Shown here: in pieces, positions 34,969 through 55,394 of the stretch
Layout of the letters: the number at the start of each line of letters is the position of its first letter
Position numbering within the stretch: the stretch's first letter is position 1
Assembly (NCBI GenBank): GCA_017428925.1
Contig: JAFRPY010000083.1
Span: forward strand, 1-55,931
From: Prevotella sp.
GTDB lineage: Bacteria > Bacteroidota > Bacteroidia > Bacteroidales > Bacteroidaceae
Reading direction: 5' to 3'
Length of the DNA: 55,931 bases
Notes under the pieces: generated by a model
What the model was told of the DNA's origin: nothing
The model's input: only the letters and a program-made list of their open reading frames with translations
The model's database searches: none
Program-made: the position numbers and the translations under genes

Positions 34969-34974
34969 AATCTT

Positions 34975-35319: not shown

Positions 35320-35340
35320 AATCGTAAAATCAATTTAAAA

Positions 35341-35907: not shown

Positions 35908-35925
35908 AGTCTATCTCCTCCTAAA

Positions 35926-36321: not shown

Positions 36322-36384
36322 TGTATAAAAATGTTTAATTAATCGGGACTCCCCCGACAATATTAAATAGAAAATTCCTCTTGC

Positions 36385-36687: not shown

Positions 36688-36692
36688 ATCTC

Positions 36693-37564: not shown

Positions 37565-37585
37565 TACTTTATTCTTTTTTATGGA

Positions 37586-37951
<366 letters not shown>

Positions 37952-37953
37952 AA

Positions 37954-38211
37954 TTACTTAGCTTTTTCGATTATTGAAACTAATCTCCATCTCTTAGTCT
38001 TCGACAAGGGACGGGTCTCCATGATGAGTACGGTATCACCTACCTGGCACTCATTGTTCTCGTCATGTGCATGGTATTTCTTTGTCTTCTGGACAAACTT
38101 ACCATAGATCGGGTGCTTCTCCTTGAACTTGGCGGCAATAACAATGGTTTTATCCATCTTGTTGCTGATAACGACACCCTGTCTTGTTTTTCTTAAATTT
38201 CTTGTTTCCAT
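37954..38211 (-). CDS. rpsQ: Ribosomal protein S17
   Basis: The protein has 85 residues from [20 protein letters not shown]. An ATG three codons upstream (38218-38220, 2 bp after the rpmC stop) is equally possible and would give 88 residues. The OB-fold block [19 protein letters not shown] is typical. Confidence 0.95.
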
Positions 38212-38222
38212 CTGGACCATTG

Positions 38223-38417
38223 TTATTTGTTAAGTTCTCTCTGGCGGAGTTCCGTCTTCATACGGGCAATGTCGCGACGTGCTGCCTTGATCAGAGAAGG
38301 GTTTTCCAACGGAGTGATTGCATGGTTCAGCTTTATGTTCTGCAACTTTGCCACCTCAGTCTCCAAGCGCTCTTCCAATTCTTTGGTGTCGAGGCCTTTA
38401 ATATCACTAATCTTCAT
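38223..38417 (-). CDS. rpmC: Ribosomal protein L29
   Basis: The protein has 64 residues forming a helical hairpin: [18 protein letters not shown], then [20 protein letters not shown]. It is spaced 3 bp from rplP. Confidence 0.97.
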
Positions 38418-38420
38418 TTT

Positions 38421-38849
38421 TTAAGCGTTTTTATCGTAATCACGTCTAACAACAAACTTACATTTCACAGGCAGCTTCTGAGCGCCGAGGCGAAGAGCCT
38501 CCTTGGCCACATCAAAAGGAACGCCTTCTACTTCGAAGAGGATTCTACCGGGAGTTACCGGTGCCACCCATCCGGCGGGATCACCCTTACCTTTACCCAT
38601 TCGGACATCGGCAGGCTTGCGGGTGATGGGCTTATCAGGGAAAATACGTATCCAGACCTGACCTTCACGGTTCATGTAGCGGTTGATGGCTACACGGGCG
38701 GCCTCAATCTGACGGCTGTCGATCCACTTGGCATCCATTGTCTTGATGCCGAATGAGCCGAAGGCCAGCTGCGTACCTCTGTGGGCGTTGCCTTTGTTGC
38801 CACGACCATCCTGAGGTCTTCTATATCTTACTCTTTTTGGCTGTAACAT
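38421..38849 (-). CDS. rplP: Ribosomal protein L16
   Basis: The protein has 142 residues. [20 protein letters not shown] and [19 protein letters not shown] are typical. It contacts the A-site tRNA region. Confidence 0.98.
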
Positions 38850-38863
38850 GATAATTCTTTCTT

Positions 38864-39598
38864 TTAACGATTATTGTTTCTCTTACGACCACCGCGGCCA
38901 TCACGGCGTCCACCGCCGTTGTTGCCACGACCGCCCTGCTTTTCCTGAGAGAAGTTAGGAGCGAGGTCGCGCTTCTCGTAAACCTCACCGCGGCAGATCC
39001 ACACCTTGATGCCGAGCAGACCAACCTTGGTAAGAGCCTCTGTCTGACAGTAGTCGATATCGGCACGGAAAGTGTGCAGCGGGGTACGACCCTCCTTGAA
39101 CATTTCAGAACGTGCGATTTCGGCACCGTTCAGACGGCCTGAAATCTGGATTTTCACACCCTCGGCTCCAGCACGCATAGTATTGGCGATAGCCATCTTG
39201 ATGGCACGGCGATAGGCAATCTTACCCTCGATCTGGCGTGCCACGTTGGTAGCCACGATAGTAGCGTCGAGCTCGGGTTTCTTCACTTCGAAGATGTTGA
39301 TCTGTATGTCCTTGTTGTACAGCTTCTTCAACTCTTCCTTCAACTTGTCAACATCTTGACCACCTTTACCAATGACGATACCCGGACGGGCAGTGCAGAT
39401 AGTAATGGTAACCAGCTTGAGCGTGCGCTCGATGACAATCTTCGAAACGCTGGCCTTTGCCAGGCGCTCGTTCAGATAGTTACGGATCTTCTGGTCTTCA
39501 ACCAGGTTCTCACCGAAGCTCTTGCCACCAAACCAGTTTGAGTCCCAACCGCGGATGATTCCCAGACGGTTACTAATTGGATTAACTTTCTGTCCCAT
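38864..39598 (-). CDS. rpsC: Ribosomal protein S3
   Basis: The protein has 244 residues. [20 protein letters not shown] and the KH motif [15 protein letters not shown] are clear. It ends in a Gly/Arg/Asn-rich basic tail (from about residue 217), a feature of Bacteroidetes S3. Confidence 0.98.
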
Positions 39599-39606
39599 TC
39601 TTATCT

Positions 39607-40011
39607 TTATTTTTCGTCGTTAGTTTTAGCATCCACAAAGAGAGTGACGTGGTTGCTGCGCTTGCGGATGCGGTAGCCACGACCCTGTGGGGCTGGTCTC
39701 ATACGTTTCATTGTAACGCCTTCGTCAACGAAGACCTTAGAGATAAAGAGTTCGCCGTCCTCTGCCTTGCGGTCATTCTTCTGTTCCCAGTTGTTGATGG
39801 CCGAGCGCAACAGCTTCTCCACATCGGCAGCAGCTGCCTTCTTGGAGAACTTCAGGACGCCAAGGGCACGGTTGACTTCCATGCCGCGTATCATGTCAAC
39901 GACATAACGCATCTTGCGGGGGCTTGATGGTACTCCATTAAGCTTGGCAAAATACAATGTCTTCAGGGCTTCTTTTCTTTTTTCAGCCGAATTATGTTTT
40001 CTTGCTCCCAT
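39607..40011 (-). CDS. rplV: Ribosomal protein L22
   Basis: The protein has 134 residues. [20 protein letters not shown] and the extended loop [20 protein letters not shown] reach into the exit tunnel. Confidence 0.98.
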
Positions 40012-40047
40012 TATTATACTTCTTTTTTAAATGGTTTAGCCCTTCGT

Positions 40048-40314
40048 TTACTTCTTGTTACCGGCATGGCCACCGAAACGACGAGTAGGTGCGAACTCAC
40101 CCAGCTTGTGTCCTACCATGTTCTCAGTAATGTAAACAGGGATAAATTTGTTACCGTTATGAACTGCTACAGTGTGTCCCACGAAGTCAGGGGAAATCAT
40201 TGAAGCTCTGGCCCATGTCTTCACAACATTCTTCTTACCACTCTCGTTCATGGCGAGAATCTTCTTCTCGAGTGATACGTTGATGTATGGACCCTTTTTA
40301 AGTGAACGACTCAT
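40048..40314 (-). CDS. rpsS: Ribosomal protein S19
   Basis: The protein has 88 residues: [20 protein letters not shown], then [18 protein letters not shown] and the C-terminal [14 protein letters not shown]. Confidence 0.98.
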
Positions 40315-40335
40315 AATTTACTTCAGTTTACTTAA

Positions 40336-41163
40336 TTATTTTTTGTTAGCTCGTGCAATAATGTACTTGTTTGAGTGCTTCTTAGGTGCACGGGTCTTCA
40401 GGCCCTTTGCATACAGACCCTTGCGAGAACGTGGATGACCACCGCTCTGACGGCCTTCACCACCACCCATCGGGTGATCATGCGGGTTCATCACAACACC
40501 GCGGTTGTGGGGACGACGACCCAGCCAGCGAGAGCGACCAGCCTTACCTGACTGCTCAAGGGCGTGGTCGGCATTACCGACGACACCAACGGTTGCCTTA
40601 CAGGCGCTCAACACCTTGCGGGTCTCACCCGAGGGGAGCTTAATCACACAATAACTGCCTTCACGAGAAGTAAGCTGAGCAAAGTTACCAGCCGAACGAA
40701 CCATCTTGGCACCCTGGCCCGGGCGAAGCTCGATGTTGTGAATCACCGTACCCACCGGGATGTTTGCCAACGGGAGGGCGTTGCCCACCTCAGGTGCAGC
40801 CTCGACACCCGAAAGCAGGGTTGTACCCACCTGCAGTCCATTGGGAGCAATAATGTAACGTTTTTCACCATCAGCGTAGAACAACAGAGCAATGCGAGCC
40901 GAACGGTTAGGATCATACTCGATTGTCTTCACTACGGCTGGAACACCATCTTTCTCTCGCTTGAAGTCGATGATACGATACTTCCGCTTGTGACCGCCAC
41001 CGATATAGCGGACGGTCATCTTTCCGGAGTTGTTACGACCACCGGTGGAACGCTTACCGTAAACGAGAGACTTCTCTGGCACGGATGCAGTAATATCCTC
41101 GAACGTGCCAATAATCTTGTGTCTTTGGCCGGGAGTTACCGGCTTTAATTTACGTACTGCCAT
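40336..41163 (-). CDS. rplB: Ribosomal protein L2
   Basis: The protein has 275 residues of the peptidyl-transferase area. [20 protein letters not shown] and the conserved His loop [16 protein letters not shown] are diagnostic. Confidence 0.98.
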
Positions 41164-41170
41164 TTCTTAT

Positions 41171-41464
41171 TTAAATATTGCTGTAAAAATCAATTGTATC
41201 GCCCTCTTTCAGAGTAACGATTGCTTTCTTGAACGCAACCTTCTGCCCCTTCACCAGGCCTGCCTTTGTGTAGCGGGCCGAGCGCTTGCCGGCATATCTC
41301 ATTGTGTTCACGTCTTCTACTGTAACATTATACTGACTCTCGACCTCGCTCTTAATCTGGAGCTTGTTAGCCTCGGGGCGAACAATAAAACCATAGCGGT
41401 TAGGACGCTTGTCTGTAATATTGGTCATCTTCTCAGTGACCAGTGGTTTGATGATAAATGCCAT
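41171..41464 (-). CDS. rplW: Ribosomal protein L23
   Basis: The protein has 97 residues of the tunnel exit, where SRP and trigger factor dock. IIKPLVTEKMTNITDKRPNR and VEDVNTMRYAGKRSARYT are typical. Confidence 0.97.
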   Translation of the reverse strand: MAFIIKPLVTEKMTNITDKRPNRYGFIVRPEANKLQIKSEVESQYNVTVEDVNTMRYAGKRSARYTKAGLVKGQKVAFKKAIVTLKEGDTIDFYSNI

Positions 41465-41480
41465 AACTAATGTCTCCTGT

Positions 41481-42110
41481 TTACTTGTTTAAGATACCAT
41501 CGATAGTCTCCAGCGAATTCTCAGTCACGACAAGCACATCGGCGTTCAGCACCTTGTAAGTGTTGAGCTTAGCTGCCTCCATAACCTCTGCACGCTGCAA
41601 ATTGCGAGCCGACAAATACACGTTCTTATCCGTTCCCGGCAAAAGGAGAAGTACTTTCTTGCCCTCGACCTTCAGGTTCTTGGTCATCTCGATGAAGTCT
41701 TTGGTCTTAGGTGCATCGAAAGAGAAATCCTCAACAACCAAGATAGCGTTCTCCTGAGCCTTATAGCTGAGGGCGCTGCGGCGAGCCAGCTGCTTCACCT
41801 TCTTGTTGAGCTTGAAACGATAGTCGCGGGGCTTCGGACCGAACACGCGGCCACCACCTACGAGAACAGGTGAGTTGATGTCACCACGGCGTGCACCACC
41901 GCTACCCTTCTGGCGGATCAGCTTGCGGGTAGAACCGGCATGCTCGCTGCGCTCCTTTGACTTGTGCGTACCCTGGCGCTGGTCGGCCAAGTACTGTTTT
42001 ACGTCGAGATACAGAACGTGATCGTTTGGTTCAATACCGAAGATTGCGTCATTTAACGTAACCTTACGTCCGGTCTCCTGACCTTTGATGTTTAATACGT
42101 TAATTTCCAT
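41481..42110 (-). CDS. rplD: Ribosomal protein L4
   Basis: The protein has 209 residues. The tunnel loop [20 protein letters not shown] is clear. The start codon overlaps the rplC stop by 1 nt. In E. coli L4 is the autoregulator of the S10 operon, relevant to the rplC leader upstream. Confidence 0.97.
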
Positions 42111-42724
42111 TACTTGTTAATAATTACGGTTGAACCATTGAAACCAGCCACGCTGCCCTTCACAATCAGAAGGTTGCTTTCTGGTATCACCTTTAACACT
42201 CTGAGATTCTGCGTGGTCACGCGGTCGCCACCCATCTGGCCACCCATGCGCATGCCCTTGAACACCTTTGCGGGGTAAGAACAAGCACCGATAGAACCCG
42301 GCTTGCGGGCACGGTCGTCCTGACCGTGAGTAGCCTGGCCTACACCACCGAAACCGTGACGCTTCATGACGCCCTGGAAACCCTTACCCTTTGAGGTACC
42401 GACAACATCAACAAAGGCTGTGTCGTTGAAGATTTCCACCGTTACGGTGTCTCCGAGGTTCAACTCCTCGTCAAACTTGAACTCGGCCAAGTGGCGCTTT
42501 GGTGTTGTACCAGCCTTCTTGAAGATTCCCTGCATAGCCTTGGTGGTATTCTTTTCCTTCTTCTCACCAAAGGCGAGCTGGACGGCCTGATAGCCATCCT
42601 TCTCAACAGTCTTCACCTGAGTAACAACACAAGGACCAGCTTCGATAACAGTGCACGGCACGTTCTTGCCGTCGGCACTGAAAACGGATGTCATTCCGAT
42701 TTTCTTTCCTAATAATCCTGGCAT
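42110..42724 (-). CDS. rplC: Ribosomal protein L3
   Basis: The protein has 204 residues: [20 protein letters not shown], then [20 protein letters not shown] and [20 protein letters not shown]. It is normally preceded directly by rpsJ, but here rpsJ lies about 8.9 kb away. The gene has its own promoter and a leader of about 180 nt instead. Confidence 0.98.
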
Positions 42725-42901
42725 TTCAGTTTAAAAATTAAATAATAATATGAATGTTTTCTGTTTCTTTCCAAGTAATACCGCGCTTTCCGCACTCACA
42801 AAACACACTTGGAAAGAAGCACTCACTACTTCGCATTTGAAGGATAAGTCGCTCTCTTTCAGTGTATTGTTAGCCGTCGTGCCAGCGCAATACCCACTTT
42901 A
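42725..42901 (-). promoter_or_regulatory. Structured 5' leader of the rplC operon
   Basis: About 175 nt lie between the predicted start (near 42902) and the rplC ATG. A perfect 12-bp stem, TTCTTTCCAAGT (42765-42776) with ACTTGGAAAGAA (42807-42818), encloses a 30-nt loop. Such a leader suits feedback control by a ribosomal protein (L4 or L3), but the ligand is inferred. Confidence 0.5.
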
Positions 42902-42908
42902 GCGGCTG

Positions 42909-42939
42909 CAAAGGTACACATTATAAATAACATACACAA
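42909..42939 (-). promoter_or_regulatory. Promoter of the rplC-to-rplQ operon
   Basis: On the minus strand, TTG (42937-42939), a 20-bp spacer and TACCTTTG (42909-42916), followed by CAGCC. The rpsL promoter has the same TACCTTTGCAGCC start. Confidence 0.65.
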
Positions 42940-42976
42940 TAGCAGCGACACACGAAATAATAATTTTTATGCTTTT

Positions 42977-45892
42977 TTAACGCCATAAGCAAAGGAAAGC
43001 CTTCACGGCAAGTGGGAAAAACAGTTTAAGCCGTGCGGTAAGCGGAAGCGAACTGTTCGTAAGCAGTCGCCGGGCTGTCTGCCTGACGATGGTGCGCACA
43101 GTCTTCCTTGCCAACGGTCCCAGCCTGTGCGAGTGGTAGCGGTCGAGTATGTTGCCCGCATACCGATAAAGTAGTTCGAGAAACCATGACTCATACTCCA
43201 TCCCCACAGTCAGGTCGGCACAGGTCTTGAAGGAATAGAGGCGATTGATGCTCTTTGGCGTTTCAAAGTTGCGGCTGAGCGAGCCGGGGCGTTTCAGCCA
43301 GTAGTAGAGCGGTGCATCGACAAGCGCGGCATACGGCAGTCGCAGGAACAGCCTTGTGTTGAACACCGTGTCCTGACTGCTGGTATCTTCAAACCGCAGC
43401 TTGCCTATGGCAGAACGCCTGTACAGTTTGTTCCACACCACATGGCTGTCCACATTTTCGGCGAGCGCGGCAAAAAGGTCGCGCTGCATCAGCAACCTGA
43501 GCGTCGGAGTCGAAGCCAGCGGCGGCATCTCGCCGACAGCAACCGGCTGTTCCACATCCTTTGCCGCTACCATGGCAAAGGGGAAGTCACCCTGTTGCAG
43601 GGACTTGTGCAGCAGACGGATCATCTCAGGATGCAGCGTGTCGTCGCCATCGGGCATGATGACATACTCGCCCGTAGCCCTGTCCAGCCCGGTGTTACGC
43701 GCCCCCGACAGTCCGCGGTTCTCCTGGTGTATCACGGCTATCCGGCTATCGCACAGCGCATAGTCGTCGCAAATCTTGCCGCTCCCGTCGGTTGAGCCGT
43801 CGTCCACAAGAATAATTTCCAGTTTCTGGTATCGCTGGGCCAGCACACTGTCAAGGCATGCCGGCAGATAAGGTGCAATATTATATACAGGTATAACGAC
43901 GCTCACCAGTCCGCTCCGTTCCACGGGTGCCGCCCCCACTGCCCGCTGGTCGCGGTCTCCTTTTTTCTTCTTCATCCGCTTCTCCATCCTTTCTCGTGCA
44001 CTGCGGCTGTGCCTCATGGTCAGCAGCTGCCATTTCACGCTGAGGGATAGATGGCTTTTGAACAGCAACGTCGCATATACACGCAGGGGGATTTTCACGG
44101 CCTCATTCACCTCGCTCCCGTCAACGCCAGGCAGTTTTTCTTGTTCGTACCGGCTCTTCATCCATGCACTATGCATGAACACACGCTGCACGCAAGCAGC
44201 TCTCACCTGAGTGTCACTCTTGGGAATGTCGGCCAGACAGGTCAGGTAGGCCCGTGTTCCCTGCAGCAGCCCACGGTCGGAAGTGACCAGCGTCGACCAC
44301 GGGTGTTCGAGCCAAAAATACAGGCGCTGTCTCACCATCACGAATTTTCCGGTTCGCTGGAACACGCGGTTCATCATCACCGCGTCTTCATAGACGCTGA
44401 ACGTTTCGGGAAACGACAATCCGGCAACAATCTGGCGGCGCATCACCTTACCGTGGCACGTGTGGCACTGGTCGATGGTGAAGTGGCGGTGGCCCATGAA
44501 CAGGGCGCGCCGCAGCATTCCGCCCTCCCCCACTGCCGCGTCGGCTTCCTTGTGGTGCTGCTGCAGCGAGGCATCGGTCAGCCGCGTCGTGCGCACCGAC
44601 AGCGTCATCGCCAGGTCTGCCTCCGGGTGGCGGTCCAGTGCCTGCACCATCAGTTCTAAGTATTGCGGATGCATATAGTCGTCGGCATCGGCAAAGGCAA
44701 TCAGTTCGCCCCGGGCCTCAGCAAGACCGCGGTTACGGGCTGCCGACACGCCGAGGTGTTCCTGCCTGACGAGACGTACGACCCCTTCAAGTCCGCCCTT
44801 TTCAATGAATCGCTCCACCTCCTCAGCTGTCTCGTCGCTGCTGCCGTCGTCCACCACGATAGCCTCCCAGCCGCCGTAAGTCTGCCACTGCAGCGAGCGC
44901 AGGCAGCGATCAACGAACAGTTCTGCATTATATGCCGGAATGATGACCGACAGCTGAGGCTTTCCCGTCTTCGCGACTTGCATCACCTCTCCATCCTTCA
45001 GGGGGAATCCCGATGCAGGCACTTTCTCCTCATACCACTTTTTGATAAACCTATAGGCCTCTGGGAAACGGTCGTGCAGATGGTAGGCCACGGCCATCCC
45101 CACCCAGTCGGCTTTCTTCCACTCCCCACAGGGATGGATATACCACTGCGGCGATGGCACCTGGTTGAAGCGCACCATCTTCGAGAAATTATCGCCCACG
45201 TCGTCGAAGACGTAAGTAAACTCACGCCCTTCGTTCGCGGCAAGACAGGTCAGCAGATACTGCTCGAACACCATGTTGAAGTAACGGGGATAGCGCAGCC
45301 GCCGCAACGTGTCCACGTTGCCCCATGCGAACCGCAGTGCCTCGTCGGCATAGCGTCGGATAAAGTCGGTGTCGGTGCCGCCGAAGACACCCAGGTTGGC
45401 CTCGTCGGTATTCGCCATGCGTTGCATGTAGTGCGGTATGTCCTTGGCTGCCATCAACGCGCTAATCACGTTGGTGCGGTTGAATGACATGTCACGTTCA
45501 TAGTTCTGGGCCACGAGCGGAGCCTCGGCGACGAATTCAGGGAAGCGTTGCCAGATGAACACGTCGTTGTCCACATGCAGGAACGGCTCCCGCTGGTCTC
45601 GGTAGGTGTAGAGTTTGCTGACGGCCCACATTTCTATGGGCCAACGGTCCAGGTCGTCGGGCAGTTCATGCACTGCCGTATAGGGCAGGTGCAGCTCGTC
45701 GATGAGCAGTTTTTTTCCCGCCGCGTCGGTGTAAAGTTCCACCTCGTCGTAAAACTGTCGCAGCGACAGGCACGACAGGGCATGACTCATATAATAGTAC
45801 ATAGGGTTGCACCAGCCACAAGCCTGCTGCAACCCTTTCCCGTTTGCCGTCCCGAAAGACGGCTTCGACCAGAAGGTCTGTATAATCCTCAT
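42977..45892 (-). CDS. Three-domain glycosyltransferase: DUF6734-like domain plus two GT2 domains
   Basis: With the ATG at 45890-45892 (MRIIQTFWSKPSFG) the protein has 971 residues; the longer frame overlaps the peptide gene. Residues 1-290 match the Bacteroidetes DUF6734 pattern, with YYYMSHALSCLSLRQFYDEVELYTD and HVDNDVFIW (DxD at 108-110). A first GT2 domain starts near 313 (LSVIIPAYN; VVDDGSSDET; ADADDYM). A second starts near 662 (VSVVIPVYN; LVDDGSTDGS; MPDGDD). A Lys/Arg-rich linker (635-650) joins them. It would add two different sugars to one acceptor. It begins 1 nt after the small-peptide gene, so coupling is very likely. The acceptor is unknown. Confidence 0.8.
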   Translation of the reverse strand: MRIIQTFWSKPSFGTANGKGLQQACGWCNPMYYYMSHALSCLSLRQFYDEVELYTDAAGKKLLIDELHLPYTAVHELPDDLDRWPIEMWAVSKLYTYRDQREPFLHVDNDVFIWQRFPEFVAEAPLVAQNYERDMSFNRTNVISALMAAKDIPHYMQRMANTDEANLGVFGGTDTDFIRRYADEALRFAWGNVDTLRRLRYPRYFNMVFEQYLLTCLAANEGREFTYVFDDVGDNFSKMVRFNQVPSPQWYIHPCGEWKKADWVGMAVAYHLHDRFPEAYRFIKKWYEEKVPASGFPLKDGEVMQVAKTGKPQLSVIIPAYNAELFVDRCLRSLQWQTYGGWEAIVVDDGSSDETAEEVERFIEKGGLEGVVRLVRQEHLGVSAARNRGLAEARGELIAFADADDYMHPQYLELMVQALDRHPEADLAMTLSVRTTRLTDASLQQHHKEADAAVGEGGMLRRALFMGHRHFTIDQCHTCHGKVMRRQIVAGLSFPETFSVYEDAVMMNRVFQRTGKFVMVRQRLYFWLEHPWSTLVTSDRGLLQGTRAYLTCLADIPKSDTQVRAACVQRVFMHSAWMKSRYEQEKLPGVDGSEVNEAVKIPLRVYATLLFKSHLSLSVKWQLLTMRHSRSARERMEKRMKKKKGDRDQRAVGAAPVERSGLVSVVIPVYNIAPYLPACLDSVLAQRYQKLEIILVDDGSTDGSGKICDDYALCDSRIAVIHQENRGLSGARNTGLDRATGEYVIMPDGDDTLHPEMIRLLHKSLQQGDFPFAMVAAKDVEQPVAVGEMPPLASTPTLRLLMQRDLFAALAENVDSHVVWNKLYRRSAIGKLRFEDTSSQDTVFNTRLFLRLPYAALVDAPLYYWLKRPGSLSRNFETPKSINRLYSFKTCADLTVGMEYESWFLELLYRYAGNILDRYHSHRLGPLARKTVRTIVRQTARRLLTNSSLPLTARLKLFFPLAVKAFLCLWR

Positions 45893-45893
45893 G

Positions 45894-46148
45894 CTAATCG
45901 TCCCACACGCTGAAGGCCATACCCTTGGCAAACATGTCGTCGCCACTTATTCCGTCGCCATCGCCATCGCGGAAGCCAATGCCTACGCCGGGGTCATCGT
46001 GATAGTTGGCGGCTCCGCCATGCTGTGTGAAGAACTCGTCAGTGTTCCACGAGTATGAGCGGGGGGTATAGTCGAACGACTGGGCCAGTGCGTCTTCCAC
46101 ATGCATCGACTGCAAATCCGTCAGCGGCTTGATATATCGTTGTTTCAT
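45894..46148 (-). CDS. Small acidic protein paired with the secreted protein and the glycosyltransferase
   Basis: The protein has 84 residues: MKQRYIKPLTDLQSMH, an A-x-S junction near 22-24, a middle rich in Tyr/His/Asn, a Gly/Asp stretch (FRDGDGDGISGDD) and a Trp-acidic end (AFSVWDD). No signal peptide is seen. It shares the plan of the protein at 21275-21502 (MK[KQ]xYxxP start, A-x-S near 22, Gly-rich middle, W[DE] acidic tail). It lies 19 bp after the large secreted-protein gene and 1 nt before the glycosyltransferase gene. Precursor-peptide or accessory roles are possible; neither is shown. Confidence 0.65.
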   Translation of the reverse strand: MKQRYIKPLTDLQSMHVEDALAQSFDYTPRSYSWNTDEFFTQHGGAANYHDDPGVGIGFRDGDGDGISGDDMFAKGMAFSVWDD

Positions 46149-46167
46149 CTGTCTTTCCTCCTTTCTG

Positions 46168-49100
46168 TTATTTCACCGTATATTTTTTTCCGTTCACGAT
46201 GTACACACCCTTGGCAAGGCGGCCTCTCAGCGCCTGCTGGTTGCCTAAGCGGCGACCTTGCAGGTCGTACACCACATTCCGGTCGGCTGCCACCGTGCCG
46301 GTGACCTGCCGCAGGGCTGTGGTGCTGCTGTCCTCGTGGCCAACGGCGTTGCTCAGCGACAGTGCTCCGCCGGCAAAGAACGTCAGTTTGGCCCCGGCGC
46401 CCTGTGTGTAGTCGATGTTGTCGTTCTCGTCGCGGTCGGGCATTTCGTCGTCAGAAAGGAAACTGTAGCCAAACCACTCCAGGTAGGGACGCCCGGCGGC
46501 AATAGTGCCACTGGTGACGCGCCGCCATGCTGCCGATGTCCAACCGCCGTAGAGATTTGACTCGCTACAGTTTTCCCAATCGTCGTATGCAGCCAGATTC
46601 GCTTCCTCAGTACCTATCGTGCTCTGCTTGCGCAGCTGGTCGCCGGGTCCGTAGCCATAGTAGTAAGGCACCACGGCGCACGTTTGTCTATAACCTACAG
46701 GAAGATTCTCATTATCGCCGTATGTCGGTGCATACACCAGCCAGTTGTCCACCACAGGCTGGGCATGGGAGGTGTTTCCATTAAGGTCATCGTAAGCACA
46801 GAGATTCCCATACCGCTTCAAGAACGGCCAGGTATGCAGCGACACGTTAAGGACACCATCACTATAATAGTCACCTCTACTGAAGGCATAGTCGTATTTA
46901 TAAACAGATTCATCACTTGAAGAAAACTTTGCCTCCGCAGCCCATCTATACCAATTGGCGGGATGGAACTCGTTCTTGTGGTCGTAGCTAAAGCCGTAAT
47001 AAGTGCCGTTGCTGGGATTGACGGGTTCGTCGGAGTAGCGCAGCACGTTCAGGAAGTTGGCCTCGTCGCGGTGCCGCCGCGTGGAGAGGTGGTATATTTT
47101 CCAATCCCTGTTATACTGGCAGTGCTCCGGGTCGCCGGCATAGAGGTAGAATGTGTGGGGTTCTGCCGTGAAATCGTAGTTGTCCGAACTGCTGCCGGTG
47201 AGCATCGTGTTGCTCAGCGTGCGTATGTTGGTGAAGTAGTTACCGTCCAGGTCCCACACCTTTGTCTCGATTCCGCTATAAGAGTCATAGACGGGGGCGT
47301 TGTACATATCTTCGCCGGCATAGTCGCTCGCGTGCGAAGCATCGGTGGTTGTCCACATACTTGCGGTTATCCATTCACGGTTGTAATCATCTTGGTATTC
47401 AAGATTACTGTTGCCGTCGTTGGCCTCCACCTCCACATAGGCAGGGTCGTCATTTTCCGTGGTGGTATAGGCATAGGGTTCACTATCATAGCCATCAATG
47501 ATGGGGTCGCACTTCGTAAACACGTAGCCGGGTTCACCATACATGTTCGAGTTGTCACGGTCGGTAGTTTCTACCGGATCGTCTGTCTCCGTTGTGGTTT
47601 CAACTCCATTGTCATAATAGAGCTTGTTTCCTGCAGCATCCACCTTATGGTATAAATCATTACCATCATTGTCACGTTTCTGTGTGGCGCGCCCACCATT
47701 GTATGCTATAAAGTACAGCGGGTCATTACTGTCTGCCTCATACAGTTTGTACCGCACCACAAGGTTACCATTGCTGTTATAGTCGGTGTAGGCATACAGC
47801 GGACTGTTCCCCTGCATCACCGGATCCTTCCAGCGAAAGCCGTTAGAACTGGTTGGAACCTTCCCTTCCTGGTCGAACTGCCACGTGCTCGGGTCATCGC
47901 TTTTGGGCGAATAGACCAGATATTCCACCGGTCCCGTGTATTCGGAGGCATCGTAGTCACCCTCGAAGACCGGCTTGAGCACCTTCTTGTATTTGTGGGC
48001 ATTAGAATAGTCGGTTTGGTCATTCTCTCCCACTTTGTTTTCGCAGCCGCTGTGGAAGTAGAGTCCGTTGGCCAGTTCTGCCTCTGCCGCCGCATTGTTC
48101 TTGTTGACGAGCGTCTGCACACTGGCGGGCAATGGCTTCGGTGCGGAGTAGTTGCGGTAGCGCACGATGACCGGCATACCCTTCGGTATCCAGTTGATGC
48201 GGCTCAGGTAGATACTTCTCTTTGCTGAATATTCTTCTTTATTAGTGATTTTGTCGTCTTCCTTCCATTTGTTCTGCGACACCATGAAGAAGTCGCAGAT
48301 ACCTTCGAGCGACGAGGGCACGAGGTAGTCGCCATCGGATACCCATGTCTCATAGCTATAGGTACCGGTGCCCAGTCCGTAGCGCCCGCCCACATGCTCG
48401 CTCCACGACAGGTAGGGCACGGGACGGCTGAAGGTCTTCGCGATGGGATTGGCAGCCGTGGCCTCCTTGATGAAGGTGATGCCCCAGAGGTAGTTGTTGC
48501 GCAGATACGTCTGTATGGGAGGGATGTTGCCCAACGGGTAACCGGCATTTGCTAGCTCACCTCCCCAAAGGCCTACAACATATTCTGAACTGTTGCCTTC
48601 CGTCCCGTAAATAGAATATTTGTCGTAAAGGGTTTTAAAAATTTTATCTTGCTCATAATACTTCAATATTTCATTCCCTTCGTTCAGATTCCAATTGGAA
48701 AGAGCGTAAAGCACTTCGTTGACGCTGCCTACATCATCGTTCTGTCCAAGATACAACTCTTTATAGTACGTGCCTACCTTATAGATGGCAAACCGCAGCA
48801 CGGTATTGGCCGTAAGCTCGAAAGGCTGCTCGTATTTCACTGCCTGCAGGCGGTCGGTCTCATAGGTGTCCATCTCTGGAGAGGTTCCCTCCGCCGAGTG
48901 TGAACCGTTTATGCTGGGCAGCAGCGAGGTGGTAGTATAGTAGATGTCGTAGTTGTAGTAGTCAGTGCTTAATAAAAATTCGCTGTTATAGGTCTGAACA
49001 GTTGATATGAAATCCTCATTCAACTCTAACTTCACCCATGCCGTCGAGGGGAACACCACATCGGTGCCTGCCGGCACCTCGGTGTAGGTGCCGTTCTCCT

Positions 49101-49896
49101 CGGTGCTCCACGAGATTTTCACGGGCATGGGCACATTCAGGTGGGCAGAGATATAGCACTGGTTCCACGGCAGCAGGCTCAGCGGTGAATGGCGGTCGGC
49201 TGCCGCCTGGCTGTTTGTGAGCTTGTCGGGGCCGGCATAGTAGTTGCCCTGAGCATCCACGAAGTTGAAAAACACAATGGTGCTCTTGCTGACATTCTCT
49301 ATAGTGAGTCTTCCCTCGCTCAGCGCCACCTTCTTGATGACGGGCTTACTCTCGTCGTTGTCCCAGCAGGTGGGATCGTCCCACTTCACACTGCGTCCCA
49401 CAAGGAACGGGTTCAGCGACGGCACCCAGCCGATACCCATCTGCGACACCGTGGGGTCGGTGCTCAGTTCCGGCAGGTCGCTGTTGGTATTGTAGAACGT
49501 ACTATAGGTGTTGCCCGCTTTGGCCGTGGGGCCCTGGTCGAGGTGTACGATGCGACGCTGGTAGTTTACCGTCCCACTACTGTTGGAATCATACTCCGAA
49601 TACTCGTAGTTCTTGGTGTACCAATACACGCGCTGCTGATACCATGACGGCTCGCCCTCCTCGGCGAGGTAATAGACCAGGTAGCCGTCGGCACTGCCTG
49701 ACCAGGAAATAGTAATGTTCTTAGTACCTACGAAGAGCGAATAGTCTTCGTATTGCAGGTTAGAGATACCTGACGGTAGTGTGCCGACAGGGCCGTTAGC
49801 ACCGTTAGTTCCTGTAACTACAGTAGCTTTTACCCCCCCCACTACAAGAAAAATAATTGCCGCTACAATCAGCAACTTCTTTGAATAAATATTCAT
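46168..49896 (-). CDS. Large secreted protein (1242 aa) with C-terminal sorting-type tail
   Basis: The ATG at 49894-49896 (MNIYSKKLLIVAAIIFLVVGG, signal peptide) is preferred over a GTG one codon upstream. The chain is rich in Tyr, Asn, Asp and Ser, with short Fn3-like or beta-rich segments (ISWSGSADGYLVYYL; VKISWSTEENGTYTEV). The tail VYDLQGRRLG...LAKGVYIVNGKKYTVK matches that of the 1641-residue protein at 21524. It has its own promoter, divergent from the ATPase gene. A surface role is inferred; there is no enzymatic motif I can name. Confidence 0.75.
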   Translation of the reverse strand: MNIYSKKLLIVAAIIFLVVGGVKATVVTGTNGANGPVGTLPSGISNLQYEDYSLFVGTKNITISWSGSADGYLVYYLAEEGEPSWYQQRVYWYTKNYEYSEYDSNSSGTVNYQRRIVHLDQGPTAKAGNTYSTFYNTNSDLPELSTDPTVSQMGIGWVPSLNPFLVGRSVKWDDPTCWDNDESKPVIKKVALSEGRLTIENVSKSTIVFFNFVDAQGNYYAGPDKLTNSQAAADRHSPLSLLPWNQCYISAHLNVPMPVKISWSTEENGTYTEVPAGTDVVFPSTAWVKLELNEDFISTVQTYNSEFLLSTDYYNYDIYYTTTSLLPSINGSHSAEGTSPEMDTYETDRLQAVKYEQPFELTANTVLRFAIYKVGTYYKELYLGQNDDVGSVNEVLYALSNWNLNEGNEILKYYEQDKIFKTLYDKYSIYGTEGNSSEYVVGLWGGELANAGYPLGNIPPIQTYLRNNYLWGITFIKEATAANPIAKTFSRPVPYLSWSEHVGGRYGLGTGTYSYETWVSDGDYLVPSSLEGICDFFMVSQNKWKEDDKITNKEEYSAKRSIYLSRINWIPKGMPVIVRYRNYSAPKPLPASVQTLVNKNNAAAEAELANGLYFHSGCENKVGENDQTDYSNAHKYKKVLKPVFEGDYDASEYTGPVEYLVYSPKSDDPSTWQFDQEGKVPTSSNGFRWKDPVMQGNSPLYAYTDYNSNGNLVVRYKLYEADSNDPLYFIAYNGGRATQKRDNDGNDLYHKVDAAGNKLYYDNGVETTTETDDPVETTDRDNSNMYGEPGYVFTKCDPIIDGYDSEPYAYTTTENDDPAYVEVEANDGNSNLEYQDDYNREWITASMWTTTDASHASDYAGEDMYNAPVYDSYSGIETKVWDLDGNYFTNIRTLSNTMLTGSSSDNYDFTAEPHTFYLYAGDPEHCQYNRDWKIYHLSTRRHRDEANFLNVLRYSDEPVNPSNGTYYGFSYDHKNEFHPANWYRWAAEAKFSSSDESVYKYDYAFSRGDYYSDGVLNVSLHTWPFLKRYGNLCAYDDLNGNTSHAQPVVDNWLVYAPTYGDNENLPVGYRQTCAVVPYYYGYGPGDQLRKQSTIGTEEANLAAYDDWENCSESNLYGGWTSAAWRRVTSGTIAAGRPYLEWFGYSFLSDDEMPDRDENDNIDYTQGAGAKLTFFAGGALSLSNAVGHEDSSTTALRQVTGTVAADRNVVYDLQGRRLGNQQALRGRLAKGVYIVNGKKYTVK

Positions 49897-49924
49897 CACG
49901 TATAATTATTAGTTTATTCGGGTA

Positions 49925-49954
49925 CAAAGGTAGTAAAAAAAACTGAAAAACAAA
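49925..49954 (-). promoter_or_regulatory. Promoter of the secreted protein/peptide/glycosyltransferase operon
   Basis: On the minus strand, TTTG (49951-49954), an 18-bp spacer and TACCTTTG (49925-49932), 29 bp before the ATG. Confidence 0.6.
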
Positions 49955-50043
49955 CTTTTCTGCCAATTTTTATTCAAAAATCAATCTAAACCTGCCAAAC
50001 GAACTAACAAACGCCCAAATCGGCAGAATAAACTATATTATAT

Positions 50044-50074
50044 TTTGCCGTTCGAGTTATTTTTGCTATCTTTG
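50044..50074 (+). promoter_or_regulatory. Promoter of the DUF234-type ATPase gene
   Basis: TTTG (50044-50047), a 19-bp spacer and TATCTTTG (50067-50074), 19 bp before the chosen ATG. This excludes the upstream in-frame start at 50045. Confidence 0.65.
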
Positions 50075-50092
50075 CGGCAGATTATAACAATT

Positions 50093-51532
50093 ATGAGCGC
50101 AATTATCGGAAGAAAACATGAGATTGAAGAGTTGGAGCGACTCTACAATAGTGACCGTCCTGAATTCGTTGCTGTCTATGGAAGGCGACGGGTGGGCAAG
50201 ACATATCTCATCAAGCAAGCCTTGAAAGACAAGTTCACCTTTCAGCATACAGGAGTATCTCCTGTCGACCAGGAAGACGAGAAAAATCGCATGAAGACAC
50301 AGTTGGAGAGTTTCTACTACTCCATGCTGAATCATGGTCTTGAAGGGTTCAAACAGCCCAAGTCCTGGATGGAGGCTTTCTACCAGTTGGAACAATTACT
50401 GCAAAAACTTGACAGTGGCCAGCGTATGGTAGTTTTCTTTGATGAACTTCCATGGATGGACACGCCTCGAAGCCGTTTCCTGTCTGCCTTTGAGAGCTTT
50501 TGGAACGGATGGTGCAATGGCCGCGATAATGTGATGCTCGTTGTCTGTGGCAGCGCGACATCATGGATGCTCAGCAACCTGTCGAGAAGCAAGGGAGGAC
50601 TCTACGGCAGACTTACTGACGAAATCAAAGTATATCCTTTCACGCTTAAAGAGTGTGAAGAGTATTTTGAGCACGAATGCATAGAAATATCTCGTTATGA
50701 TATTGTACAGTCGTATATGGTCTTTGGAGGAATACCCTACTACCTCAGCTATTTCCGCAAAGGCTATAGTTTTGAGAGAAATACCGACATGATTCTCTTC
50801 GGCAGCAAGCCAAGACTGAAAGACGAGTTCAACCGTCTCTTCAAAGCTATCTTCACAAATTCAGACGACTGTAAGAAAATCATTCGTTTGCTTGTTACCC
50901 GTAACTACGGTTTTACACGCGAGGAGATAGCATCTGCCACAGGACTTCCACAGGGAGGTGGACTCAGCGACACGCTGGCTGTGCTTGCAGAAAGCGACTT
51001 CATCATGCGCTATAGCCCTTACGGAAAGAAAGCCGGAGAGTATTACAAACTTGTTGACAACTTCTGCCTTTTCTGGGTGAGGTATGTAGAGAAAAATCAA
51101 GACAATGCCACGTTCATCAACGATAATTTCACGTCAGATGTGATGCGGGCATGGCGGGGAGTGGCCTTTGAACAGGTATGCTGGCAGCATTTAACTCAGA
51201 TTAAACGAACCCTGGAGATAGGCGGAGTCAGGGCTTCAATCTCAGCATGGAACGTGCCAGGAACAGAACAGAAAGCAGGAACACAGATAGACTTTCTGAT
51301 CATACGCGATGACAACATCGTAAACCTCTGCGAAATGAAGTTTTACAGTTCATCCTATAATGTCAGCAAGGAAGAGGAAGCCAAGATGCTCCACCGCGTA
51401 GAGATGCTAAAGGAAACCCTCTCTTCCAAACAAACGGTTCATCTTACGCTCGTAACCTCCTTCGGACTTGTTCATGGCAAACATAGCGGAAAGATTCAGA
51501 AGGTCGTAACAATCGATGACCTTTTCATATAA
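50093..51532 (+). CDS. AAA-like ATPase with C-terminal DUF234 / PD-(D/E)XK-type domain
   Basis: The protein has 479 residues from MSAIIGRKHEIEEL. Walker A is YGRRRVGKTYL, Walker B is MVVFFDELPWMD, and sensor-like VVCGSATSWM follows. The C-terminal part has the nuclease-like pattern GTQIDFLIIRDD...NLCEMKFYS (D...E-x-K), as in the DUF234 family of archaeal-type ATPases that is common and multicopy in Bacteroidetes. Function is unknown; defence or mobile-element links have been suggested for related proteins. It is transcribed opposite to the ribosomal genes within the insert, and its stop codon lies inside the terminator stem. Confidence 0.85.
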   Translation: MSAIIGRKHEIEELERLYNSDRPEFVAVYGRRRVGKTYLIKQALKDKFTFQHTGVSPVDQEDEKNRMKTQLESFYYSMLNHGLEGFKQPKSWMEAFYQLEQLLQKLDSGQRMVVFFDELPWMDTPRSRFLSAFESFWNGWCNGRDNVMLVVCGSATSWMLSNLSRSKGGLYGRLTDEIKVYPFTLKECEEYFEHECIEISRYDIVQSYMVFGGIPYYLSYFRKGYSFERNTDMILFGSKPRLKDEFNRLFKAIFTNSDDCKKIIRLLVTRNYGFTREEIASATGLPQGGGLSDTLAVLAESDFIMRYSPYGKKAGEYYKLVDNFCLFWVRYVEKNQDNATFINDNFTSDVMRAWRGVAFEQVCWQHLTQIKRTLEIGGVRASISAWNVPGTEQKAGTQIDFLIIRDDNIVNLCEMKFYSSSYNVSKEEEAKMLHRVEMLKETLSSKQTVHLTLVTSFGLVHGKHSGKIQKVVTIDDLFI

Positions 51533-51567
51533 AAAGCGAGGCTCACCATCAATGAGCCTCGCTTTTT
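51531..51567. terminator. Bidirectional terminator between the ATPase gene and rpsJ
   Basis: A perfect 15-bp stem (AAAAAGCGAGGCTCA, 51531-51545, with 51553-51567) and 7-nt loop with flanking A and T tracts. It ends the ATPase transcript and, on the other strand, the rpsL-rpsG-fusA-rpsJ transcript 20 bp after the rpsJ stop. Confidence 0.9.
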
Positions 51568-51586
51568 ATGCAAGATAAAGATTTTA

Positions 51587-51892
51587 CTATACCTTGATTT
51601 CAACCTCTACACCACTGGGAAGTTCGAGCTTCATCAGCGCGTCGACGGTCTTGGCAGTAGAACTGTAGATGTCGATCAGACGCTTGTAGTCTGACAGCTG
51701 GAACTGCTCGCGGGCCTTCTTGTTGACGAAGGTAGAACGGTTTACGGTGTAAATACGCTTGTGAGTGGGAAGGGGGATGGGACCGCTGACGATGGCACCC
51801 GTAGCCTTCACGGCCTTCACAATCTTCTCTGCTGACTTGTCGACCAGCTGGTGGTCGTAGCTCTTCAGCTTGATACGAATTTTCTGACTCAT
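51587..51892 (-). CDS. rpsJ: Ribosomal protein S10
   Basis: The protein has 101 residues: [20 protein letters not shown], then [20 protein letters not shown] and [17 protein letters not shown]. It also serves as NusE in antitermination. Here it ends the str operon and is cut off from rplC by a terminator and an 8.9-kb insert. Confidence 0.98.
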
Positions 51893-52049: not shown

Positions 52050-54179
52050 TTACACGAGGTCCACACGTCCCTTGATCTCCTCAAGCACAGCCTTGGCAAG
52101 GCTTGAAGACAGCGGAGAGTGGTGGTCGTACTCCATAGAGCTGGTTGCACGTCCGGAAGTGATGGTACGCAGAGCCGTTACGTAACCGAACATCTCTGCC
52201 AGGGGAACCATAGCCTTGATGATACGGCCACCGCTGCGGCCCTCTTCCATACCTTCTACCTGTCCGCGGCGCTTGTTCAGGTCACCAATCACGTCACCCA
52301 TGTTCTCCTCGGGAGTAACAACTTCGAGCTTCATGACAGGCTCCATCAGCACGGGGCCGGCCTTCTGGCAAACTGCCTTGTAGGCGAAACGTGCAGCAAG
52401 TTCGAACGAGAGCTGGTCAGAGTCAACGGGGTGGAACGAACCGTCGAGCAGCACAACCTTCAGCGAATCCATGGGATAGCCACCCAGAACACCGTTCTTC
52501 ATGGCATCCTCGAAGCCTTTCTGTACAGAAGGAATGAACTCCTTAGGCACGTTACCGCCCTTCACCTCGTTAACGAACTGCAGTCCGCCGTTCTCCTTGA
52601 TATCCCAGTCGTCGTCGACAGGACCCACGTTCACGATGATGTCGGCAAACTTACCGCGACCACCCGACTGCTTCTTGTAAACCTCACGATGGTTCTCGAC
52701 AGTCTTGGTGATGGCCTCCTTGTAGTTCACCTGAGGCTTACCCTGGTTGCACTCCACCTTGAACTCACGCTTCAGACGGTCGATGATGATATCGAGGTGA
52801 AGCTCACCCATACCCGAGATAACGGTCTGGCCGCTCTGCTCGTCGGTATGCACGGTGAAGGTCGGGTCTTCCTCGGCCAGCTTGGCAAGACCATTGTCGA
52901 GCTTGGCGATGTCGGCCTGGCTCTTGGGCTCCACTGCGATAGAAATCACGGTGTCGGGGAAGGTGATGCTCTCCAGCACGATTGGATGCTCCTCGTCGCA
53001 GAGGGTGTCGCCGGTGCGGATATCCTTGAAGCCTACACCTGCGCCGATATCACCGGCGTCGATGCTCTCCATGGGGTTCTGCTTGTTTGAGTGCATCTGG
53101 AACAGACGGCTCACGCGCTCCTTCTTGCCCGAACGGGTGTTGTAGACATAGGAACCAGCGGCAATCTTACCAGAGTATACGCGGAAGAACACCAGACGGC
53201 CCACATAGGGGTCGGTAGCAATCTTGAAGGCCAAAGCCGATGTGGGCTCATCTTCGCTGGGCTTGCGGTCTTCCTCTTCGCCGGTGTCGGGATTCTCACC
53301 CACGATGGCAGGTGTGTCGACAGGAGCGGGAAGGAAAGCGCAAACATAGTCGAGCAGGGTCTGAACACCCTTGTTCTTGAACGACGAACCACACAGCATT
53401 GGAGTGCACTGCATAGAGATAGTGCCCTTGCGGATAGCAGCAATCAGTTCCTCTTCGGTGATAGAGTTAGGATCGTCGAAGAACTTCTCCATCAACTCCT
53501 CGTCGAACTCAGCGGCAGCCTCGACAAGCTTGTCGCGCCACTCCTGTGCCTCGTCCTTGAGGTCGTCGGGAATCTCGTCAATCTCGAACTCAGCACCCTG
53601 AGTCTCGTCGTGCCAGATAATGGCCTTCATCTTGAGCAGGTCAACGATGCCCTTGAAGGTCTCTTCCTGACCGATGGGGATAACCAGCGAAACGGGGTTT
53701 GCACCCAGCACGTCCTTCATCTGCTGAAGAACGTCGAAATAATTGGCACCCGAGCGGTCCATCTTGTTCACGTAGCCCAGACGGGGTACGTTGTATTTGT
53801 CAGCCTGACGCCAGACGGTCTCCGACTGAGGCTGCACACCACCCACAGCACAGTAGGTAGCCACAGCTCCGTCGAGCACACGCAGCGAGCGCTCCACCTC
53901 GGCCGTGAAGTCAACGTGTCCCGGAGTGTCGATCAAGTTGATCTTATACTGCTTGTTGTTGTAGTTCCAGAAACATGTCGTTGCGGCAGATGTGATAGTA
54001 ATACCACGCTCCTGCTCCTGAGCCATCCAGTCCATGGTAGCGCCACCGTCGTGCACTTCGCCGATCTTGTGGGTCTTACCTGTGTAGAACAGGATACGCT
54101 CAGAGGTTGTCGTCTTACCGGCATCGATGTGAGCCATGATGCCGATATTGCGCGTCAATTGTAAATCGTGCTTTGCCAT
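52050..54179 (-). CDS. fusA: Elongation factor G
   Basis: The protein has 709 residues, the GTPase of ribosome translocation. G motifs are [15 protein letters not shown] (G1), DTPGHVDFT (G3) and NKMDR (G4). The domain IV and V blocks ([37 protein letters not shown]-like, read [15 protein letters not shown]) are present. It follows rpsG in the str operon. An unusual acidic insert ([15 protein letters not shown]) lies in the domain I-II junction. Confidence 0.98.
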
Positions 54180-54223: not shown

Positions 54224-54700
54224 TTAGAATCTGAAATGAGCGAATGCACGGTTAGCCTCAGCCATACGGTGCATATCCTCCTTACGCTTGAAGGCACCAC
54301 CCTGACTGTTGTAGGCATCCATAATCTCAGCTGCCAGACGGTCGGCCATAGACTTACCGCCACGCTTACGTGCGAACTGAATCATGTTCTTCATGGATAC
54401 GCTCTCCTTACGGTCGGGACGAATCTCTGTAGGAACCTGGAAGGTAGCACCACCGATACGGCGGCTCTTCACCTCCACCTGCGGAGTGATGTTGTCGAGG
54501 GCCTGCTTCCAAATCTCGAGGGCAGACTTCTCCTCGTTAGCCATCTTTGCCTTGACAATGTCAAGAGCCTTGTAGAAAATCTCATAAGATGTATTCTTCT
54601 TTCCGTCATACATCAGATGATTCACGAACTTCGAGACCTTCTGGTCGTTGAAAACTGGATCCGGAAGGATCACACGCTTCTTTGGTTTTGCTTTTCTCAT
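54224..54700 (-). CDS. rpsG: Ribosomal protein S7
   Basis: The protein has 158 residues and initiates assembly of the 30S head. [23 protein letters not shown]-like start ([16 protein letters not shown]), then [20 protein letters not shown] and [20 protein letters not shown]-like end. In E. coli S7 represses its own cistron by binding the rpsL-rpsG spacer. Confidence 0.97.
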
Positions 54701-54883: not shown

Positions 54884-55264
54884 TTATTTCTTAGCCTTAG
54901 GACGCTTGGCTCCGTACTTAGAGCGGCGCTGGGTGCGGTTAGCAACACCGGCGGTATCCAATGTGCCGCGTACGATGTGGTAACGTACACCGGGAAGATC
55001 CTTTACACGACCACCACGCACCAGCACGATTGAGTGCTCCTGCAGATTGTGGCCTTCACCAGGAATGTAGGAGTTGACCTCCTTCTGGTTTGTCAAACGA
55101 ACACGGGCTACCTTGCGCATAGCCGAATTAGGCTTCTTCGGGGTCGTTGTGTACACACGCACACACACGCCACGACGCTGAGGACAGGAGTCCAAAGCGG
55201 GCGACTTGCTCTTGTCTACAAGTGCCTTTCTGCCTTTTCTTACCAATTGTGAAATTGTAGGCAT
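54884..55264 (-). CDS. rpsL: Ribosomal protein S12
   Basis: The protein has 126 residues and sets decoding accuracy. The streptomycin-relevant segments [19 protein letters not shown] and [18 protein letters not shown] are present, with the wild-type Lys in both PKKPNSA and RVKDLPG. It is the first gene of the str operon after its promoter at 55349. Confidence 0.98.
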
Positions 55265-55320
55265 TTTACTTTAATTTTTAATATATATTATGTTGTTTAT
55301 TTATGTTCGTGAATGTACAC

Positions 55321-55340
55321 AATAGTCCCCTAAGACTATT
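55321..55340 (-). promoter_or_regulatory. Leader hairpin of rpsL
   Basis: AATAGTC (55321-55327) pairs with GACTATT (55334-55340), a few nucleotides after the predicted transcription start. It may affect mRNA stability or feedback. Confidence 0.4.
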
Positions 55341-55348
55341 TGGGGCTG

Positions 55349-55356
55349 CAAAGGTA
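55349..55356 (-). promoter_or_regulatory. -7 element of the rpsL (str) operon
   Basis: On the minus strand TACCTTTG (55349-55356) followed by CAGCC, as before rplC. The -33 box is not recognisable at the usual distance. Confidence 0.55.
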
Positions 55357-55394
55357 AGAAGTTTCTTTGAAATCACCTAATTAAATAAACAGTA

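Follow-up and report, generated by a model that had tools for sequence, protein, structure and literature searches.

A candidate structured leader RNA upstream of rplC marks a break of the S10 operon after rpsJ in Prevotella and neighbouring genera

In Escherichia coli, the S10 operon is regulated by ribosomal protein L4 through a leader located before rpsJ, the gene for ribosomal protein S10, and feedback control by this route is part of the standard model. We analysed the equivalent gene row in a Prevotella contig of 55,931 bases (JAFRPY010000083.1, referred to below as the window), which is one entire contig of a draft genome with 122 contigs, 85% completeness and 5.36% contamination. In this contig rpsJ and rplC, the gene for ribosomal protein L3, are separated by other genes, and rplC is preceded by a predicted structured leader RNA. 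The leader resembles that of E. coli in that most of the same genes would be under its control, by a feedback that is here only proposed. It differs in standing before rplC rather than rpsJ, and in having no Rfam match at gathering score. A search of the window and 80 named loci with a covariance model of the leader (R1, built on its first ~106 positions) revealed no copy before rpsJ or rpsL, or anywhere other than upstream of rplC.

Breaks in this gene cluster have been described in other bacteria. The portions of PMC8046335 that deal with it report insertions in Gammaproteobacteria and Bacilli, mostly at operon boundaries and followed by separation; the boundaries concerned are rpoBC-str and str-S10, and an nrdHEF event lies inside the rpoBC operon. 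The Prevotella locus is similar in that a few genes invade the boundary of two units, adjacency would be unselected, and the halves can separate fully; the foreign genes of the window occupy 8.9 kilobases (kb), under 10 kb, between two units. However, the break does not fall on a canonical boundary such as str-S10. It lies one gene farther, inside the canonical S10 operon and after rpsJ, and, unlike the cases in those portions of PMC8046335, it is accompanied by a conserved leader and is free of cargo in many species. With regard to the leader, Table 1 of PMC7247131 (20 new ribosomal leaders) assigns L13 and S4 leaders to Bacteroidia but lists no rplC leader for that class; the sole rplC-rplD entry there, from Archaeoglobi, is an archaeal L4 motif of uncertain status. 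Like those L13 and S4 leaders, the Prevotella element is a lineage-limited, structured and covarying 5' leader of a ribosomal protein operon. The main text of a human-microbiome RNA survey with thousands of candidates (PMC8040213), supplements aside, does not contain the term rplC, and a 2010 survey (PMC2864571, in part) also belongs to the comparison literature. Searches of the open-licence literature showed no published account of this rplC leader or of this rpsJ-rplC split. The break is of a known kind, with junction insertions described elsewhere, and the leader RNA appears to be undescribed.

Across relatives the leader largely coincides with the break, and most non-joined loci have it within the 300 nt upstream of rplC. 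We compared the window with the best 80 of 575 loci by rplC similarity, taking one genome per species (at least 80 such relatives exist). Among the resulting 81 loci, rpsJ and rplC are joined in 52, with a gap of 16–199 nucleotides (nt); they are 291–835 nt apart in eight and 3.8–8.9 kb apart in nine. A further 12 are classed as far, meaning that no rpsJ lies in the upstream DNA examined, which extends 0.9–10 kb from rplC. Xylanibacter ruminicola D31d is among the split loci, as are further Prevotellaceae; one locus, L085, is omitted from the split count. Model R1 recognizes a leader in 26 of the 29 non-joined loci (8/8 with mid-sized gaps, 8/9 with kilobase gaps and 10/12 far) versus none of the 52 joined. 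All 26 matches have E values below 1e-11 and lie directly 5' of rplC, and the next match has an E value of 0.44. A hairpin followed by a T-run, with a fold energy of -15 kcal/mol or better and within 75 nt of the rpsJ stop, is found in 26 of 32 leader-bearing loci (short gaps included), in 0/52 joined loci and in 0/320 shuffled stretches. Among one-contig members of the genus in the first genome set, 13 leaderless gaps measure 19–199 nt versus 224–7,792 nt for 10 leader-bearing gaps. The original prediction treated the 8.9-kb interval as a single unusual insertion, and this does not hold: many relatives have this junction open too, with differing cargo, and we reject a unique recent insertion. 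Its background statement that rpsJ directly precedes rplC in most Bacteroidetes proved sound. From the first set of 60 relatives, 24 genomes of the same order outside the family were compared; 20 have both genes on one contig, and all 20 have gaps below 80 nt (the other four have the genes on separate contigs or lack one). A joined rpsJ-rplC is the rule outside the family.

Larger samples of genomes, at least 80% complete, drawn as subsets of the larger groups and searched with strict filters that lose weak matches, show the range of the leader. It is present in 87 of 199 genus genomes and in 19 of 399 family genomes (4 of 27 genera), the window genome being counted in both, and in one of 294 order genomes, which is the window's own. 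These counts are not additive with those of the named loci, since the two collections overlap (L098/L194 and L069/L154 look identical). Among the 87 genus genomes, 84 have one copy and three (G025, G034, G162) have two. In these three the paired leaders lie on different contigs, reflecting either contamination or a true second copy.

A list of 83 leader hits in 80 of the genus genomes, which omits six leader-bearing genomes (G217, G219, G223, G224, G225, G227), was used to locate rpsJ. It is on the leader's contig in 45 cases, and in all 45 the two halves have the same orientation; 19 leaders lie 77–586 nt from rpsJ, too close for any cargo to fit, and 26 lie 1.5–16.7 kb away, 21 of the latter at less than 10 kb. 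For 27 hits rpsJ is on another contig and for 11 none is listed, both of which fragmented drafts can cause; partial rpsJ pieces were omitted (two in G061, one in G204), and G061 was scored as lacking rpsJ though its pieces are on another contig. Single-contig, 99%-complete genomes show the same range of states. Three (G016, G024, G226) are joined with gaps of 42, 41 and 21 nt and have no leader. G120 carries the leader, and a DsbD-like gene lies in its 2,673-nt gap. G436 (3,551,722 bases) carries the leader with rpsJ at 3,047,872 and rplC at 584,830, a distance of ~1.09 megabases if the contig is circular. Because joined, 2.7-kb and megabase states all occur in single-contig genomes, the doubt raised by draft fragmentation is removed. 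Separately, three loci of the Hoylesella group (L070, L130, L135) have gaps of 124–199 nt and no leader, and L130 contains repeated AACTCGTAA-like units.

The predicted leader of the window occupies positions 42,725–42,906 on the minus strand, with an approximate start, and was delimited from a conserved alignment of 24 rows. The rows were selected as leader-bearing; L113 and L131 were excluded because their rplC start looks damaged, and L086, L120 and L138 because no leader is recognizable. Model R1 matches the core (42,799–42,904) with 103.8 bits, the window being one of the model's own training rows. The structure consists of a two-part stem (P1, 42,861–42,898) with a conserved internal loop (UUGCGCUGG / CUAACAA), a short stem (P2, 42,825–42,849; CUUC/GAAG) whose letters vary freely, and a long A-U rich hairpin (P3, 42,765–42,818), followed by an A/U-rich stretch and the rplC ATG. 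In the P1 loop, UGCGCUG is identical in 24/24 rows and CUAxCAA is present in nearly all. The 185-nt window leader folds with a z score of -2.26, and equally good folds occur in 4/200 shuffles.

Compensatory changes support the conserved secondary structure. When 32 pairs were scored on a structure-blind MAFFT alignment of the 24 rows, 86.7% of cells were paired (81.3 ± 0.6 when shuffled, 39.5–53.3% when slid), with 39 double-change cells versus 12.0 ± 3.0 and 18 pairs with a double change versus 9.0 ± 2.0; 0/500 shuffles reached any of these measures. The tested structure was derived from the window sequence and the RNAalifold consensus together, which biases the slide control in its favour, and kinship among rows inflates the shuffle control. 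In 56 distinct rows fitted to the covariance model there are 53 double-change cells versus 9.8 ± 2.7 in shuffles. RNAalifold alone recovers only P1, and covariation contributes little to the energy (-0.41 of -4.94 kcal/mol). Permissive searches against Rfam (4,227 families) of window positions 28,000–55,931 and six compact loci gave only matches below gathering scores, and identity with a known RNA family was ruled out for these stretches.

All 59 leader matches examined lie directly 5' of rplC, in its presumptive 5' untranslated region (UTR). The rplC start is 7–88 nt downstream of the match, and 70–88 nt in 55 of the 59; the four short-spaced cases (L113, L131, L151, L181) may be truncated or misassembled. 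In L113 (9,960–10,010) the leader continues into rplC and the usual start region is missing, and in L131 (9,580–9,640) the rplC start is shortened; each is a deletion or an assembly fault.

The leader is probably transcribed, as judged from the predicted promoter that precedes it at 42,909–42,939 on the minus strand. This promoter comprises TTG (42,937–42,939), 20 nt and TACCTTTG (42,909–42,916), a layout that we take to be the Bacteroidetes promoter type. TAnnTTTG begins 11–13 nt ahead of the model start in 59/59 matches, and in 45 of these it reads TACCTTTG; TTTGCA had served beforehand as an anchor in 24 of the 59, leaving 35 independent for this count. The background frequency of TAnnTTTG in the window is 0.45 per kb and strand. 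The predicted rpsL promoter of the window shares 13 identical letters, TACCTTTGCAGCC, with that of rplC, which in this single comparison is consistent with equal drive of both halves. The region upstream of rpsL (55,265–55,365, minus strand) contains the TACCTTTGCAGCC core and a small hairpin (AATAGTC...GACTATT), and is perhaps a second leader.

At the other side of the break, an inverted repeat at 51,531–51,567, flanked by an A-run and a T-run, would act as a bidirectional terminator for rpsJ and for the gene on the opposite strand. The claim that it is perfect is borne out by 15-base-pair arms and a 7-nt loop without mismatch, and the hairpin 3' of rpsJ has a fold energy of -22.1 kcal/mol. 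We measured 8,862 nt between the rpsJ stop and the rplC start, in agreement with the ~8.9 kb claimed; the promoter and structured leader that the original prediction assigned to rplC are both present upstream of that gene, and with the rpsJ terminator they uphold its view that the split looks stable. The upstream half, all on the minus strand, consists of rpsL (S12; 54,884–55,264; TIGR00981), which heads it, rpsG (S7; 54,224–54,700; TIGR01029), fusA (EF-G; 52,050–54,179; TIGR00484) and rpsJ (51,587–51,892; PF00338, TIGR01049), which closes it. The downstream half runs on the same strand from rplC (42,110–42,724) to rplQ (28,078–42,724 in total). NCBIfam and Pfam checks covered rpsL, rpsG, fusA, rpsJ, rplC, rplD, secY and rplQ, and the remaining genes from rplC to rplQ are assigned as open reading frames (ORFs).

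Four ORFs lie in the junction of the window. Next to rpsJ is a divergent gene of the ATPase_2/AAA_14 family (50,093–51,532, plus strand; PF01637). The other three are on the minus strand: a protein of 1,243 amino acids (aa) without a Pfam family match (46,168–49,899), presumably secreted to judge from motifs at its ends; an 84-aa ORF, likewise without a Pfam match (45,894–46,148); and a glycosyltransferase with DUF6734 and two GT2 domains (42,977–45,892; PF20508, PF00535). The glycosyltransferase has an ATG at 45,892, and its reading frame is open from a GTG at 45,946. Inspection by eye found no hairpin terminator between its stop (42,977) and the rplC promoter; therefore transcription of the cassette might continue into rplC. 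Among 119 other genus genomes, one (G027) has a match to the glycosyltransferase at E 1e-60 or better. There the gene is also located between rpsJ and rplC, and adjoins a 1,508-aa protein that is homologous to the 1,243-aa protein (64% over 786 aa) and occupies the same place. G027 carries the leader as well, with a score of 98.2 bits. The G027 glycosyltransferase ORF has 654 aa versus 989 in the window, and the region of the second GT2 domain is uncovered in G027. The ATPase gene is absent from G027: in a pairwise comparison 1.7 kb of the window stands opposite ~0.3 kb. The cargo of the window is probably layered, with an older cassette (the 1,243-aa protein, the 84-aa ORF and the glycosyltransferase) partly common to G027 and the ATPase gene, which G027 lacks.

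The cargo of other species is diverse. Grouping 133 ORFs of at least 90 aa from 34 inserts (blastp, E 1e-10 over half of the shorter protein) gave 15 groups without a common gene, a low estimate in that weak links swell the largest group (12 inserts). The 34 include a likely duplicate genome (L098/L194), the leaderless L120, and L203, which has no rplC match at its end. A Pfam scan of the four window proteins and 30 of the relatives' proteins among the 133 listed ORFs, some of which had no match, detected restriction-modification enzymes, serpin, Penicillinase_R, M56/TonB, DsbD, riboflavin synthesis, BspA-like repeats, CotH, clostripain and a dihydroorotate-dehydrogenase-like enzyme in the relatives. 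A Penicillinase_R and M56/TonB module occurs in the gaps of L096, L146, L147, L189 and L192, with surrounding genes that partly differ. L074 (4,642–9,257) and L191 have riboflavin synthesis genes in the gap, on the strand opposite to the ribosomal genes. Restriction-modification genes are found in the inserts of L062, L145 and L118 (an EcoRI-type methylase with GmrSD/HNH, two C5 methylases, and type ISP).

We propose that, in Prevotella sensu lato and a small number of nearby genera, the str-S10-spc-alpha row was severed after rpsJ at the level of the transcription unit. On one side is rpsL-rpsG-fusA-rpsJ with its own predicted terminator, and on the other rplC-rplQ with its own predicted promoter and a conserved, structured leader of ~180 nt. 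With S10 and L3 no longer on one transcript, their adjacency would not be selected, unrelated genes could enter the junction repeatedly, and the halves could drift apart in some lineages. Repeated, different cargo and physical separation are observed; the order of the steps is what the model adds. We would place the cut before the insertions because gene-free gaps with terminator, promoter and leader exist; a gene-free gap could equally be one that has lost its cargo. The balance of S10 and L3 would be kept by the similar, separate promoters of the two halves and by the leader as a probable feedback element, which would bind a ribosomal protein of its own unit and lower translation of that unit when the protein is in excess. 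L4 and L3 are first guesses for this ligand, with L4 placed ahead because it regulates the E. coli S10 operon. To the reading as a whole, that is, a unit cut one gene into the S10 operon, tolerated insertions including the layered cargo of the window, and leader-controlled genes from L3 to L17, we assign a probability of about 0.72.

Several observations weigh against this reading. It leaves the patchy spread of the leader unaccounted for. In three non-joined loci (L086, L120, L138) no leader match is convincing, and therefore the leader is not required for every split. All three fall in a single five-row Alloprevotella-like clade, whose other two rows are joined, and each of the three has TAnnTTTG upstream of rplC by eye. 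A diverged leader was considered for them: L086 has a weak match in the expected place (11.2 bits, E 0.008 in 511 nt), and the candidates in L138 and L120 were not convincing. The terminator scan was negative in six of the 32 leader-bearing loci (L074, L087, L139, L159, L162, L163). Nothing points to a ligand, and neither a motif search nor an unfiltered model search of the 23S locus of G120 revealed similarity between the leader and 23S ribosomal RNA (rRNA). The best model match there, with 12.7 bits, lies beyond the 23S gene, in its flank, and on the evidence of this one locus we rejected 23S mimicry.

The lack of a ligand pointer and of rRNA resemblance, together with the A/U-rich stretch before the ATG in the 24-row alignment, would also suit a leader that is no feedback switch, merely the 5' UTR of a strong promoter whose stems protect the transcript or keep the A/U-rich start open. 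The conserved internal loop of P1 and the compensatory changes argue for a recognized fold rather than a generic hairpin, and we regard this alternative as unlikely. A stronger competitor, though still one that we hold to be less likely than not, is that the leader moves sideways: instead of a single gain followed by many losses, recombination through the highly similar flanking ribosomal genes would swap joined, leader-bearing and insert-bearing junctions between species. A quick tree was built from 13 concatenated ribosomal proteins over 81 rows and 2,206 columns, some genes being absent in 13 of the rows; on it, the presence of the leader requires at least nine changes, which would suit sideways movement. 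With a Bacteroides outgroup and equal costs, the cheapest history has six gains and three losses; if a gain costs five times a loss, one gain and 15 losses (root without leader) or, more cheaply, 18 losses (root with leader) are needed. Trees of single genes (eight downstream genes, fusA and rpsJ) also bear on this. In 65 rows, 17 with the leader, the downstream genes require 7–10 changes, versus shuffled means near 15, and those nearest the leader (rplC 8, rplD 7, rplB 7, rpsC 8) require slightly fewer than those farther away (rplE 10, rplF 9, rpsE 9, rplO 10). However, the two sets differ little, and the farther four need eight when combined. In a 54-row subset with nine leaders, the upstream genes rpsJ and fusA need six and eight changes. 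These trees yield no clear signal that the leader spreads together with the adjacent rplC. Moreover, leader distance tracks protein distance in 24 rows (Mantel r = 0.56, p = 0.0001), and therefore inheritance is favoured; clade-specific leader variants (L074/L077/L078, L072/L073, L132/L139) likewise stand against sideways spread.

The cargo bears on a further set of explanations. Restriction-modification, VapE-like and Bro-N genes are common cargo of mobile islands, and their presence in some inserts (the first in L062, L145 and L118, VapE-like or Bro-N domains in L163 and L118) would fit a site-specific mobile element or integron-like hotspot at the junction. However, no integrase or transposase family was detected by Pfam among the four insert ORFs of the window and the 30 insert proteins of relatives scanned, no flanking repeats of 10 nt or more were found around the window ATPase gene, the sole place examined, and ordinary metabolic genes such as the riboflavin genes of L074 are among the cargo; we consider a hotspot improbable. 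Descent of all inserts from a single old insertion, for which the cargo common to the window and G027 and the Penicillinase_R-M56 module of five loci might speak, is already contradicted by the 15 gene-disjoint groups and by gene-free gaps and joined relatives that are interleaved on the tree, and has very little probability left. The original prediction had proposed that the same insertion in all relatives would mark an old clade trait: the identical insertion is not universal, which speaks against a simple clade trait, and a shared part of the cargo does exist, in G027. Finally, the draft state and contamination of the window assembly could suggest that its contig is misassembled. With a homologous interval in G027 and single-contig genomes that are split likewise, an assembly error is barely credible.

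The cut that we favour may also be considered as a boundary that moves. It is a doubtful though attractive extension of our reading that the new leader family of Prevotella and near genera is a portable boundary, whose gain releases the L3-L17 unit from S10 and whose loss or recombination fuses the operon again. An operon that ranks among the most conserved in bacteria could on this view be opened, take up foreign genes and end up with its halves at distant chromosomal sites. If this were true, operon splitting would be repeatedly reversible, contrary to the usual view that broken operons stay broken. One genus offers a natural series of joined, cut, loaded and separated states, all but the cut state being represented by single-contig genomes, and it supplies a step that is usually missing, as the predicted regulatory boundary is also present without cargo. 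The leader is a concrete candidate regulatory RNA with a structure and a covariance model, and the system would allow a direct test of how ribosomal proteins are kept in balance once a shared transcript has been lost.

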